Under the pieces are notes generated by a model. It was not told where the DNA came from and ran no database searches. It saw only the letters and a program-made list of their open reading frames with translations. From Desulfobulbaceae bacterium (lineage in GTDB: Bacteria > Desulfobacterota > Desulfobulbia > Desulfobulbales > Desulfobulbaceae), in NCBI GenBank assembly GCA_011389815.1, contig JAABTP010000017.1, forward strand, positions 1 through 45,449: a stretch of 45,449 nt of DNA. The letters run 5' to 3'. Below are positions 1-41,820 of the stretch, one piece after another (position 1 is the first letter of the stretch; the number at the start of each line of letters is the position of its first letter). The position numbers and the translations under genes were made by a program.

Positions 1-1431
1 AAACTGAAAGAACTCGGTTTTACCAGCCCGCAACTTGCTGCGGCCCTTGGCAGCATAATTGGTCGGGCATGTCACCCTGCTAGCGAACGGTCCACCCATG
101 ACTGGCTGCAGAATTTCTCGGCCCTTGGCGAGCTTATTTCATATGATTTCGAAAAGATAAGCCTGAGCCGCATGTACGAAATCGCTGATAAGCTTCTGAA
201 ACACAAAACAGCACTGGAAGAGCACCTCTCAGAGCAGGAACGCTGTATTTTCAGTCTGAAAGAGACGATTACCCTCTATGATCTGACCAATACCTATTTC
301 GAAGGAGCATCTGGAGACAATACCCTGGCTGCGCGTGGCCGATCCAAGGAAAAACGCTCTGATTGCCCTCTGGTAACCCTGGCTGTGGTTCTGGATGGAC
401 AAGGTTTTATCAAGCAAAGCAATGTGTTCGAAGGAAATGTGAGTGAAGCAAAAACTCTTGCCACAATGATTGAAGACCTGGAGGAAAAATATCCACCGAA
501 TGGTCTGTTTATAAAAGAAAAACCAACTGTTGTTATGGATGCCGGGATCGCCACCGAGGAAAATATCCAATGGCTGAAGGACAAGGGGTATCCCTATCTG
601 GTTGTCAGTCGAAAAAAGCATCGCGAATTTGATGAAGAACAGGCTGTTTTTGTTAAAAAAGACAAAAAAGGCACAGTGAAGGCACAAAAGGTCGTTGACG
701 AAGAAACCGGTGAAATCCTTTTGTATTGCCACTCAACCCAGCGTGAGAAAAAAGAGCGGGCCATCAATAATCGCTTTGCGATACGCTTTGAGGAGGCTTT
801 GGAAAAACTGGATAAGGGTCTGCGTAAAAAGGGTTGCCTTAAGAAATATGATAAAGTTATCGAAAAGATAGGGAGATTGAAACAACGGTATCCCAAAGCT
901 GCGGCACAGTACGAGATTGCTGTGGAGCAGGATGAGCAGAGCGGCAATGCAACGCTCATCACCTGGGAGTCTCAGCCAAAAGACAATACAAAGCAAACAT
1001 TACCAGGTGTTTATTGCATCAGAACCTGTCAGGACTGGGATGAAAAAACACTTTGGAGCACCTATACGATGCTCACTGACGTTGAAGCGGTTTTTCGTTC
1101 TCTGAAGTCAGAACTTGGCTTGCGGCCTGTATTTCACCAGCAAACTGAGCGTGTTACAGGGCACTTATTTATCAGTGTGCTTGCCTATCACCTGATTCAG
1201 GCAATACGGTACCGGTTAAAAAAAGTAGACATTCACGATAGCTGGAAGACCATTCGTGAACAAGTGGGCGACCATAGCAGAATTACTGTCACTGTACAGT
1301 GTAAAAATGGAGATACGGTTCATATCCGAAAAAGCTGTCGCCCGGAACCGAGACAACAAAGAATATATGACGCTCTTGGCCTGCCACATCATCCTGGCAG
1401 GATTATCAAGAGGACGATTCCGGCAAAATAA
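1..1431 (+). CDS. IS1634-family DDE transposase (5' end outside window)
   Basis: The frame is open from base 1, so the gene starts left of the window; an internal ATG at 172 is not the true start. The product is a DDE transposase that cuts and joins insertion sequence ends. The visible motifs are those of the IS1634 branch of the IS4 group: DLTNTYFEG near the first catalytic Asp, VVMDAGIAT with the second Asp, then YPYLVVSRKK, and EAVFRSLKSELGLRP with the catalytic Glu. The C-terminus looks complete (stop at 1429-1431). It appears intact over the visible 476 codons, so the element may still be active. The downstream gene fragment suggests it inserted into an FGE-fold gene. The family call rests on motif recognition only. 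Confidence 0.88.
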   Translation, partial: KLKELGFTSPQLAAALGSIIGRACHPASERSTHDWLQNFSALGELISYDFEKISLSRMYEIADKLLKHKTALEEHLSEQERCIFSLKETITLYDLTNTYFEGASGDNTLAARGRSKEKRSDCPLVTLAVVLDGQGFIKQSNVFEGNVSEAKTLATMIEDLEEKYPPNGLFIKEKPTVVMDAGIATEENIQWLKDKGYPYLVVSRKKHREFDEEQAVFVKKDKKGTVKAQKVVDEETGEILLYCHSTQREKKERAINNRFAIRFEEALEKLDKGLRKKGCLKKYDKVIEKIGRLKQRYPKAAAQYEIAVEQDEQSGNATLITWESQPKDNTKQTLPGVYCIRTCQDWDEKTLWSTYTMLTDVEAVFRSLKSELGLRPVFHQQTERVTGHLFISVLAYHLIQAIRYRLKKVDIHDSWKTIREQVGDHSRITVTVQCKNGDTVHIRKSCRPEPRQQRIYDALGLPHHPGRIIKRTIPAK

Positions 1432-1525
1432 AAATTTGTAGTGCCATAGGAATAGTCAAAAAATAAGCAACTTGTTGTTTTTGCATAACTTTGACTTTTT
1501 ATGTCACGAACTTGGGTTAAGTCAA
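1..1525 (+). mobile_element. Insertion sequence, right part (IS1634-like)
   Basis: The transposase gene is followed by about 90 non-coding bases, after which FGE-fold coding sequence begins in mid-domain at about 1532. The right end of the element must therefore lie between about 1500 and 1530. The left end is outside the window, so terminal inverted repeats and target duplication cannot be checked here. The right boundary is an inference from where homology to the FGE domain resumes. Confidence 0.5.
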
Positions 1526-1531
1526 GAAATC

Positions 1532-2059
1532 GGCCAGACCTATCGCTTGCCCACCGAAGCCGAGTGGGAATACGCCTGCCGGGCAGGGAGTGAGTCGGCA
1601 TATTGTTTTGGGGACGATGAGAAGTTGCTGGGCGAGTATGCTTGGCATGAGAAGAATTCTGGGGGAAAGACACACCCGGTAGGCGAAAAGCTTGCCAATG
1701 GCTGGGGTCTGCACGATATGCACGGCAATGTCTGGGAATGGTGTCAGGATTGGTATCGCAACAAATACTATGCCCAATGTCAGAAGAGAGGGATGGTGAA
1801 GAATCCGCAGGGTGCCCGAAGGCCCGTCGAGTACCGTGTCGTACGCGGCGGCTCTTGGTTCGGCACGGCGGGGCGCTGCCGTTCCGCCTGCCGGTTCAGG
1901 TACGAGCCTGTCTCCCGCTACGTCGATTTCGGCTTTCGCTGTGCCCGAGTTCAGGGTGAGCTGGCCGGAGGGCCTGTTAAGGAGGAAAGTGCCAGACGTA
2001 CTTTTCCGTCGCAGAGCAGCAGGACAGCACCGTCGCAGCACCATTCCGCCCGGCGTTGA
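1532..2059 (+). pseudogene. FGE-sulfatase / C-type-lectin-fold gene fragment, N-terminus lost
   Basis: From about 1532 the frame encodes the C-terminal part of a formylglycine-generating-enzyme-like (FGE-sulfatase, C-type-lectin fold) domain: YRLPTEAEWEYACRAGSE, then GWGLHDMHGNVWEWCQDWY, then RVVRGGSW and DFGFR. The same motifs occur in order in the intact gene at 3589-5673, where about 590 residues precede them; here they are missing. The sequence upstream of residue G21 of the open frame does not match the domain, so the gene was probably cut by the IS1634-type element. The segment between RGGSW and GFR has mostly NNC codons (see the variable region entry). A tail of about 38 residues follows the domain end, longer than usual for DGR targets. 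Translation without an N-terminus seems unlikely, but a start at 1472 would give 195 residues. Confidence 0.75.
1856..1939 (+). other. Putative DGR variable region (NNC codon signature)
   Basis: The segment runs from the Trp of RGGSW to the Arg of GFR. Positions that are Asn (AAC) in template repeats of known diversity-generating retroelements are here codons TTC, GGC, CGC, TGC, TTC, TAC, GTC, TCC, TAC, GTC and TTC, all ending in C. The conserved Arg, Ser, Ala and Pro scaffold codons lie between them. This is what adenine-specific mutagenesis of AAC codons leaves behind. It is a pattern seen in the sequence. No reverse transcriptase, Avd protein or template repeat is present in the window, so whether the site is active cannot be judged. 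Confidence 0.6.
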
Positions 2060-2250
2060 AACACCGGGCTATTTTCTGCCGTCCCTTTGGGACTTTTGTC
2101 CCGGAGGGACATTCGATCATAGCCCAGTGATTTATCGCTGGGCAGCCTGGGGCAATTCGTGCTCTATATTGCCCTTTCAGGGCATCGAACCCTGCGATCA
2201 GCCACCAACCCGTAGGGCGCGAACCCCTGTGTTCGCCCTGAAACATTGAT
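2060..2250. repeat. Cluster of short intergenic hairpins (dispersed-repeat type)
   Basis: Several perfect or near-perfect small hairpins are packed together. They are GTCCC-TTTG-GGAC at 2081-2093, GTCCC-GGA-GGGAC at 2099-2111, GCCCAGtGA/TCgCTGGGC at 2123-2143, GCCCTTTCAGGGC at 2171-2183, and a GTAGGGCGCGAACCC...GTTCGCCC arm at 2212-2239. The last arm recurs in similar form at 21390-21415. No open frame here looks like a protein. Such hairpin clusters are typical of dispersed palindromic repeats in environmental bacterial genomes; function unknown. Confidence 0.6.
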
Positions 2251-3290: not shown

Positions 3291-3360
3291 ATCCTGAGAG
3301 CAACAAGGGGTTGGCAACTCTTCTTTAGCTGGCAAGGTCCGCTTGAGTGCAACGAAGTCA

Positions 3361-5757: not shown

Positions 5758-7185
5758 TTACGCCGTAAACATTTTTCGTACTTCTTTGAGGTAATCAGAA
5801 TTACAGATCACAATGGCCCGATTCCCTTCCTGAATATGGGTGGATCCCACCGCAGTATGCCAGGCTCCGTCACGAAAAACACTACCAATGATGATATGAC
5901 CTGTAAAAGAGGGATCCAGCTTGGCTAAGGGTTTACGGGTCACCGGAGCACCTGGAGCTGCTATCAGGTCAACGACCTCAGCATCAAACCCGTGCATATG
6001 CATCACAGAAAGCAGTTCATTACGGCTGATATAGGTGAGGATTTCGTTTCCAGCCAGGATTTTTTTATTCAGGACAATATCTGAGCCACTGGTGGAAGCT
6101 AAGACCATGTAATCCGTATTATTGACCATGCATATGGTTTTTTTCAGATTACGCAACGAGTTGTCTGTTTCCGCTGGCTCCATAAGCTGTTTTGCCAGCA
6201 GGCAGCTCATAATATTGGTTTCATTCTGGCCTGTGGTGGCAATAAAGGTATCCATGTCCGGTAAGCCAGCCTCTTCCAGAACATATTTGTCTGACCCGTT
6301 GCCGTGCAGGATTTCCGTATGGGGAAGCAGGGAAGAAAGCTCGGTGGCCCGTTGTTCATCCTGTTCAATCAGGCGGACATGGACCTCTTTGCCCAGGAGT
6401 TCTGCCAAACGGCACCCGACCAGGCCACCACCGAGAATCATGATGCGATTTCTTCGCTGTTGCTGAATGCCAGCCAGATCAATAAGGCGAGGCAGGTCAT
6501 CCTTATTGGCCATAACCAGGATCTGATCATGGGGCAGAATTTCGTGTTCACCTCCAGGAATAATAGTGGTGATTCCCCGGGAGATTGCAATTACCCGAAA
6601 AGGAAATTCGTTATAGCTCTTTGCAATCTCAATAAGGGTTTTATTGGCCAGAGGAGAATCATCATGTATCCGGGCCGCCAGCACCTGCATCTGGCCCAGG
6701 GCAATGTCAATAATTTCATCACCAGCAGTCCGTTTGATCAGGCGGGCAATCTCCTGAGCAGCCAGCTCTTCCGGGTGGATGAAAAGGTCAATTTTTAAAT
6801 CATCCCCTTGGAGCAGGGCATCTTTATTACCGAAATCCAGGGACCGTACCCTGGCTATTTTGCAGGCAATGCCGAATTTGTCGGCAATCATGGAGGTCAT
6901 CATGTTGACCGCATCATTATCTGTTACTGCGATCATATAATCCATCTGATCAGCAGCAGCTTCCTGCCAACAGTCAATACTCATTGCACTCCCGTTGATA
7001 ATACGGGCATCCAGATTATCATCAGCATGTCGAACCAGATCCGGGTCTGATTCAATGACTGTGACCGAATACTCTTCATCCAGGAGTCGGGTTGCCAGAT
7101 GGTACCCAATGCCTCCCAGACCGAGAATGAGGAAGTTTTTTGATTCTGCAGGTTTTTTTTTAAGCTTTTTCAGTGCATTCAGCAT
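5758..7185 (-). CDS. trkA: Trk potassium uptake regulatory protein TrkA
   Basis: A 475-residue cytoplasmic protein matching the length of bacterial TrkA. It has two tandem RCK units. The first Rossmann fold begins FLILGLGGIGYHLATRLL at about residue 18, with Glu and Asp for NAD(H) ribose binding in VIESDPDLV. A TrkA_C domain follows (IHDDSPLANKTLIEI). The second Rossmann fold begins IMILGGGLVGCRLAELL at about 247 and ends in a second TrkA_C domain. TrkA gates the TrkH/TrkG potassium channel in response to nucleotides. No trkH is seen next to it. It is transcribed away from the rpmH operon and sits where dnaA is often found in other genomes. Confidence 0.92.
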   Translation of the reverse strand: MLNALKKLKKKPAESKNFLILGLGGIGYHLATRLLDEEYSVTVIESDPDLVRHADDNLDARIINGSAMSIDCWQEAAADQMDYMIAVTDNDAVNMMTSMIADKFGIACKIARVRSLDFGNKDALLQGDDLKIDLFIHPEELAAQEIARLIKRTAGDEIIDIALGQMQVLAARIHDDSPLANKTLIEIAKSYNEFPFRVIAISRGITTIIPGGEHEILPHDQILVMANKDDLPRLIDLAGIQQQRRNRIMILGGGLVGCRLAELLGKEVHVRLIEQDEQRATELSSLLPHTEILHGNGSDKYVLEEAGLPDMDTFIATTGQNETNIMSCLLAKQLMEPAETDNSLRNLKKTICMVNNTDYMVLASTSGSDIVLNKKILAGNEILTYISRNELLSVMHMHGFDAEVVDLIAAPGAPVTRKPLAKLDPSFTGHIIIGSVFRDGAWHTAVGSTHIQEGNRAIVICNSDYLKEVRKMFTA

Positions 7186-41688: not shown

Positions 41689-41820
41689 GCGGGTACCTGA
41701 CTTTCTGGGCAAAACAGGAGAACAAATTCCTGTACTGGAAAGTTGATAAAGCCACAACCGTCGTGAGGCGGTGTCGGAAAGCCACGGATCTCTGATGGGA
41801 GAGACAGCCGGGTTACCTGC
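41689..41820 (+). ncRNA. Cyclic-di-GMP-I (GEMM) riboswitch, variant with inserted hairpin
   Basis: The core shows the GEMM pattern. A GNRA loop (GTGA at 41763-41766) closes the stem ACCGTC/GGCGGT. GGAAAGCCACGG and AGACAGCCGGGTTACC frame the second stem. P1 pairs GCGGGTACC (41689-41697) with GGTTACCTGC (41811-41820) with one bulge. By alignment to the Vc2 aptamer, the G contacting the ligand (G20) corresponds to G41751, A47 to A41778 and C92 to C41808. The G21-C46 pair is swapped to C41752-G41777. A hairpin of about 46 bases (41701-41746) is inserted between P1 and the GNRA-capped stem, which is unusual. It precedes a secreted-protein gene by 32 bases. Confidence 0.8.

Follow-up and report, generated by a model that had tools for sequence, protein, structure and literature searches.

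Positions 1822–1954 of the window, by which we mean the whole stretch of 45,449 nucleotides analysed here (contig C85 of the Desulfobulbaceae assembly G000, of 4.0 Mb in 233 contigs and 97% complete), are in our estimate, with a probability of about 0.87, the variable region (VR) of a remote target of a diversity-generating retroelement (DGR), the target being a NACHT/STAND-like NTPase with an FGE-type sensor that was orphaned, cut by an insertion sequence (IS), and is likely a relic. In what follows, G, C, and L numbers denote genomes, contigs, and loci, respectively, and the template repeats and reverse transcriptases of the retroelements are abbreviated as TR and RT.

The target gene and its interruption by an insertion sequence

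The gene that carries the segment is split in two by the insertion of an IS at TTAA (Table 1). Nine matches to PF03781 were found in the own genome, and one of these (positions 3–109) is the matching N-terminal half, located on contig C225 within a 570-codon open reading frame (ORF) that is open at the contig end. Upon alignment to the frame of the G007 homologue, the C225 half corresponds to residues 33–580 (90% identity) and the window half to residues 580–730 (74%). Furthermore, in G007, G004, and G006 the neighbours of the C225 half, the target, its tandem paralogue, and the gene at window positions 5758–7185 lie in one stretch, which arrangement is found up to the paralogue in G002 and from the target onward in G003. 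Since the C225 and window halves join in one syntenic frame of the relatives, it is the IS that has divided the gene. The IS has 14 matches in the own genome, several of them at contig starts; its matching left end occurs on C225 and C109, the end sequences are CCCAAGTTCG/CGAACTTGGG, and the other copies are flanked by TTAA, CTAA, ATAA, TTAG, or TTAT. The target gene of G004 also looks broken, at its 5' end. As a separate observation, an Acido-Lenti-1 RNA (Rfam RF01687) was matched at window positions 2049–2094 (+), at L049 6638–6683, and at L046 7603–7648, in each of the three species at the target gene's end or immediately downstream of it.

That the window holds a fragment of an FGE-fold gene, as the initial annotation had stated, is correct: in addition to the PF03781 match in Table 1, the best solved structure for the fragment was the Treponema denticola variable protein 1 (2Y3C; E 8e-24). 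The RGGSW..GFR block aligns near the C-terminus of that protein, TvpA, and the VR, judged from these alignments, lies in the C-terminal region of the target, within a domain of C-type-lectin fold.

Table 1. Features of the interrupted target gene and its surroundings, in window coordinates.
Feature	Position	Strand	Basis
IS, 3' part	1..1516	+	DDE transposase ORF 1–1431, open at contig edge; PF01609 E 1.1e-11
IS right terminal inverted repeat ACGAACTTGGG	1506–1516	+	
TTAA at insertion point, both sides of IS	1517..1520	.	C225 side: '..caatggTTAAcccaagttcg..'
3' half of NACHT/STAND-like FGE gene (NTPase type predicted)	1521..2059	+	FGE (C-type-lectin) C-terminal half + tail; PF03781 positions 111–255
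Probable DGR variable region (orphan VR)	1822..1954, limits approximate	+	A-specific divergence from relatives' TRs; 3' end
VR core block RGGSW...GFR	1844..1939	+	conserved scaffold codons; variable codons at TR-A sites
Intact tandem paralogue, 694 aa	3589..5673	+	PF03781 E 1.3e-57; nSTAND3 below cut-off

Codon composition of the segment

The in-frame translation of 1856–1939 reads WFGTAGRCRSACRFRYEPVSRYVDFGFR, and the excess of C-ending codons first noticed in this segment is real: 17 of its 28 codons end in C versus 29/107 in the portion of the gene fragment that precedes it. This density exceeds the local background: 2394 overlapping stretches of 28 codons were counted across five other ORFs of the window, and the highest value reached was 13. 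The A content is 6 in 84 nucleotides, with as few A's in 8/2394 of the comparison stretches. The C-ending codons enumerated at the outset are indeed present, but that enumeration was selective, with ACG, GGG, GAG, and GAT among the codons omitted. As a sign of DGR activity, C-ending is by itself weak, being found in 9/15 codons with a TR A and in 8/12 of the other codons, but more telling at the eight codons for which the G005, G006, and G010 TRs all have AAC or AAT; in the window, seven of these eight end in C. Because C-ending fails to separate variable from scaffold codons, the case rests on the comparison with templates, and it is the pattern at the A columns of those TRs, not the codon endings, that we regard as diagnostic at the level of sequence.

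Comparison of the segment with the template repeats of relatives

TRs of the same family are present in the relatives G005, G006, G010 (contig C360), and G067, and the segment 1844–1939 carries the scaffold RGGSW..A..CRSA.R.R.EP..R....GFR. When compared with the TR of G010, which genome belongs to another genus, the window mismatches at 16/22 A columns and at 6/59 other columns (odds ratio 23.6, p 9e-8); the corresponding counts were 17/23 versus 11/73 for the G005 TR, 17/23 versus 13/73 for the G006 TR, and 18/24 versus 11/72 for the G067 TR. Over the four TRs, all of them from other species, the odds ratios were 13–24 with one-sided Fisher p values of 1.4e-6 to 9e-8, for which calculations the columns were treated as independent and the A's of the TRs sit in loop codons that are variable in FGE proteins anyway; the cross-species nature of the relation is likewise reflected in its 6–13 non-A differences. 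Against 13 other VRs, the window differed at 43–78% of the TR-A columns and at 9–38% of the remaining columns. A concentration of the differences at A positions, which the initial annotation had proposed as a check, was thus found against the TRs of all four relatives and supports the reading as a DGR variable region; through this VR–TR relation, the segment can be identified from its sequence as the hypervariable target region of a DGR. The limits originally given, 1856–1939, do fall within it, but the feature is larger, extending over about 1822–1954 and including an IMH-like 3' end.

As a control, we searched 84 inputs (80 public loci, the window, and three loci of the own genome), of which 37 yielded 46 blocks, counted only if they had exactly 32 codons with the motif; some of these blocks may themselves be VRs. 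The non-A mismatch to the G010 TR was lowest in the window VR among all 46 (0.10, the next being 0.22), with a median of 0.41 in the 44 blocks outside the window and values of 0.42–0.58 in the window paralogue and four FGE blocks on other contigs of the own genome. When the roles were reversed and VRs from other species served as mock templates, an A excess was obtained in 7/7 instances (odds 4.6 to infinite), although with p values of 0.0008 to 0.06 on only 4–13 A columns each; such an excess is expected if the leftover A's lie at TR-A sites, and it is not independent support. Among the non-A columns of the G010 TR, those with T differ in the window more often (3/13) than those with C (2/25) or G (1/21). 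A looser scan for A bias over the loci of the own genome and of the relatives (up to 12 non-A differences per 60) gave many A-rich chance matches, and from it only the full-length matches to L040, L041, L042, and L052 were kept.

The 3' ends of VRs and TRs are distinct. The window VR ends in gttcag (1949–1954) where the TRs have GCTCAC; [GT]TCAG was observed in 13/15 VR rows, the two without it being G003 and G067_VR2, and GCTCAC in 5/5 TRs, so that by its sequence the IMH-like end of the window is of the VR type and different from that of a TR. In all 13 VRs with [GT]TCAG the end is followed by NGAGC, though GAGC is also present in one of the five TRs (G010). A hairpin just 3' of the VR is known for the Bordetella phage DGR; when we looked for one at that place, no VR stood out from its shuffles.

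These comparisons bear on whether a retroelement needs to be invoked at all. Ordinary positive selection or gene conversion on the FGE ligand loop might in principle produce a variable segment whose C-endings simply reflect the local GC; FGE loops do vary generally, the segment is GC-rich, and C-endings are no rarer in its scaffold codons than in the variable ones. We nevertheless consider this explanation very improbable, because 53 of the 59 non-A columns are identical to the TR from the other genus while the whole gene, VR included, is only about 69% identical in DNA to its G010 homologue; because the equivalent block in the adjoining paralogue is nearly fixed; and because the VRs and TRs have the distinct ends just described and the control blocks are less close.

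Templates and targets in the relatives

The within-genome TR/VR pairs of the relatives, like that of contig C97 in the own genome, behave in their sequences as those of DGRs do. The single G010 TR fits three targets on three contigs, with mismatches to the VRs on C360, C182, and C214 at 15/22, 14/22, and 13/22 A columns and at 0/59, 1/59, and 1/59 other columns, respectively. The G005 TR mismatches its own VR at 16/23 A and 3/73 other columns, the G067 TR at 11/24 and 4/72, and the G006 TR at 16/23 and 4/73, or at 19/23 and 8/73 when compared with the NACHT-like target of that genome. Within G010, the window gene has its closest relative in the C214 gene, a 738-codon frame with 63% and 51% identity to the two halves, whereas the paralogues have 43–46% to the first half and 49–54% to the second; the C214 gene is therefore likely, from these identities, to be the orthologue of the window gene. 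That the G010 TR fits the C214 gene is the best sequence evidence that this gene family would be a remote DGR target.

The machinery itself is unevenly preserved. In G005, contig C106 carries a C-terminal RT fragment, a TR, and an FGE target side by side; in G006 (L041 4997–5992) the TR and a target are kept, but of the RT only a C-terminal remnant is left, 46 residues of which match the G005 fragment, near a small transposase-like ORF that is presumably a REP-type transposase. Among 30 RT loci scanned in the genus, the DGR-type motif was found in three (two in G000, one in G006), beside which stands the G005 fragment, from which the motif-bearing part is absent. The single-contig genomes G004 and G007 both carry the target, and in neither was a DGR-type motif seen in the RT loci scanned, two weak G004 matches lying outside that scan, nor did the DNA searches give any match readable as a TR. 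With so few DGR-type RT motifs in the genus and none seen in G004 and G007, either the target would have persisted repeatedly after its machinery had gone, or the scan overlooked distant RTs.

We also noted two more VR-like FGE ends in G007 (L214 4962 and 12721, minus strand), whose 3' ends look altered by eye, and another DGR in G010 (C102; L215 4400–6972, minus strand) with an FGE target, an RT, a TR, and, judged by eye, an HRDC-like ORF and a further small ORF that may be an Avd.

Template and reverse transcriptase in the own genome

Two complete-looking DGRs are present in the own genome. The first (L004 280–2858, minus strand, on C97) consists of an FGE target, an HRDC protein that overlaps the RT, the RT, and a TR, which TR mismatches its own VR at 14/26 A and 0/70 other columns. 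The second (L006 6326–10156, on C146) has an RT, a TR, and a target that contains collagen-like repeats and is interrupted by an in-frame stop ahead of its VR; here TR and VR differ at 23/49 A and 4/127 other columns, all four of the latter at the 5' limit of the region compared. Both RTs, each with its own TR, contain GLPIGNxxSQ, which we take to be the DGR form of the RT motif, and have as best PDB match 8ub7, presumably the Bordetella phage DGR RT; neither of them adjoins the window VR.

With two such elements at hand, the window VR might be thought a target of one of them, the more so as C97 also has an FGE target and its TR mismatches the window preferentially at A columns (21/26 A, 22/70 other columns; p 1.6e-5). 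Such an assignment is hardly credible: the 22/70 non-A mismatches, set against 0/70 to its own VR, speak against the C97 TR as the template, and the C146 TR codes for a block of a different type, its position being absent from the matches to the window VR. A search of the own assembly with the PF03781 profile found the C97 TR as the only FGE-type TR, and it fits poorly; DNA searches with the window gene (6 of the 19 candidates scored, among the matches listed), with the G006 TR (5/5 scored), and with the G010 TR (3/3 scored) returned the window VR, the C97 TR, and other FGE genes, but no fitting TR. The suggestion that the machinery is elsewhere or lost thus holds in its second half, provided that "lost" is widened to "or not assembled": DGR-type RTs do exist elsewhere in the genome, but neither of their TRs fits this VR, and the profile and three DNA searches found none that does.

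The fitting TR and RT being lost or not assembled, and the gene being cut by the IS, the copy is, as far as its sequence tells, most likely a relic that is now inactive. The alternative, that the target is still active, would place TR and RT in genome regions missing from the assembly, with the IS confined to some of the cells. The assembly is indeed in 233 contigs, both gene halves stop at an IS at which other contigs terminate too, the VR keeps its VR-type end, and intact and transposon-damaged DGR variants are described as coexisting in Thiohalocapsa (PMC10907252). We nonetheless think it unlikely, in view of an assembly 97% complete in which the profile and three DNA searches (one with 6/19 candidates scored) gave no fitting TR, and of the single-contig genomes G004 and G007, where the target stands with neither a TR-like match nor, over the RT loci scanned, any DGR-type motif.

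Under the relic interpretation, the sequence of events that we propose is the following. A TR transcript would have been copied by A-mutagenic reverse transcription, and the mutated copy would have homed in trans, from a remote TR, at the GTTCAG end, so as to rewrite the ligand face of the C-terminal FGE sensor. The fitting TR and RT would then have been lost from the own genome, or were not assembled, and the IS would have inserted at TTAA, cutting the gene in two.

The predicted NTPase part and the relation to known systems

In Pfam, no NTPase match was obtained for the C225 half, and the paralogue and the G007 and G010 homologues matched nSTAND3 or NACHT below the cut-off. NF058535 of NCBIfam, the model of the NACHT-domain antiphage protein EruA, gave 24.8 bits with the C225 half and 26.4 bits with the G007 homologue (residues 98–237; cut-off 1000), which is a weak similarity in the NTPase part, the window family not being a member. 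The structural model of the G007 homologue had a mean pLDDT of 55, with much of the FGE part below 50, and Foldseek with this low-confidence model matched NOD2, NLRC4, and NLRP proteins at query TM-scores of about 0.2, which matches are only supportive. PADLOC assigned no family to the C225 half, the G007 homologue, or the C182 protein. By likeness to the CLec-STAND targets of Thiohalocapsa, we infer that the target may be a STAND-type NTPase with a C-terminal sensor, and hence probably a bacterial immune sensor of a type that multicellular bacteria are known to carry.

The targets of DGR 3 and DGR 6 of Thiohalocapsa PB-PSB1 also combine a STAND/NACHT NTPase with a C-terminal CLec/FGE domain bearing the VR, diversification in trans was likewise inferred at some loci, and transposon damage and several DGRs per genome were reported there too (PMC10907252); unlike those described, the window gene stands in a genome where no fitting TR was found, is itself cut, and adjoins a nearly fixed tandem paralogue. 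The TvpA-type DGR of T. denticola (2Y3C) shares the FGE/C-type-lectin target with a C-terminal VR, an HRDC accessory overlapping the RT as in our C97, remote targets, and remnant targets in isolates without a complete DGR (PMC4891356); TvpA, however, has a predicted lipoprotein signal, whereas the FGE domain of the IS-split window gene caps a NACHT/STAND-like NTPase. In the FGS-fused VMAP ternary conflict systems, a DGR-diversified FGE-type C-lectin is also part of a putative conflict protein, though theirs are fused to vWA components and the domain discussed here to a NACHT-like NTPase (PMC7159879). Orphan and remote targets are already known from T. denticola and Thiohalocapsa, and the window gene is such an orphan target and not a complete DGR. 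Remote targets would escape the method of a large metagenome survey, as its authors themselves point out (PMC8144416). In the open literature searched, no paper was found that deals with DGRs in cable bacteria or under 'Desulfobulb', nor, by title, one on topic for Electrothrix with reverse transcriptase or for cable bacteria with NACHT.

The tandem paralogue

The paralogue downstream, 45% identical to the G007 target protein and matched by PADLOC to Avs2 at 19 bits, differs from the target in its variability. Across six species, a count that includes the G003 gene and the 5'-broken G004 gene, the mean identity within the block was 96% for the paralogue and 52% for the target gene, whereas over about 110 residues upstream of the block it was 84% and 73%, respectively. 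We put forward, as a tentative idea in which our confidence stays clearly short of even, that in this lineage (the family of Candidatus Electronema, probably Candidatus Electrothrix) tandem sensors were maintained of which one was rewritten in trans by a DGR and the other locked at 96%, with RT and TR being repeatedly lost. If this were true, each species would hold a frozen sensor repertoire, that is, diversity made by a retroelement and fixed in an immune receptor that is passed on by descent, next to an unvarying partner gene. Apart from this tentative idea, the reading of the window gene as a relic target accords with the view that in multicellular bacteria DGRs diversify sensors of the STAND type. 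It also shows that the TRs of relatives allow a target to be recognised in a genome where its own template is lost or not assembled, and the pair of variable and fixed paralogues provides an internal control for tests of ligand binding by the diversified face.

Tandem 21-nt repeats occupy window positions of about 2440–2650, in the stretch that separates the target fragment from its paralogue, with a further copy near 3360, and a c-di-GMP-I riboswitch (Rfam) was matched at 41741–41820.
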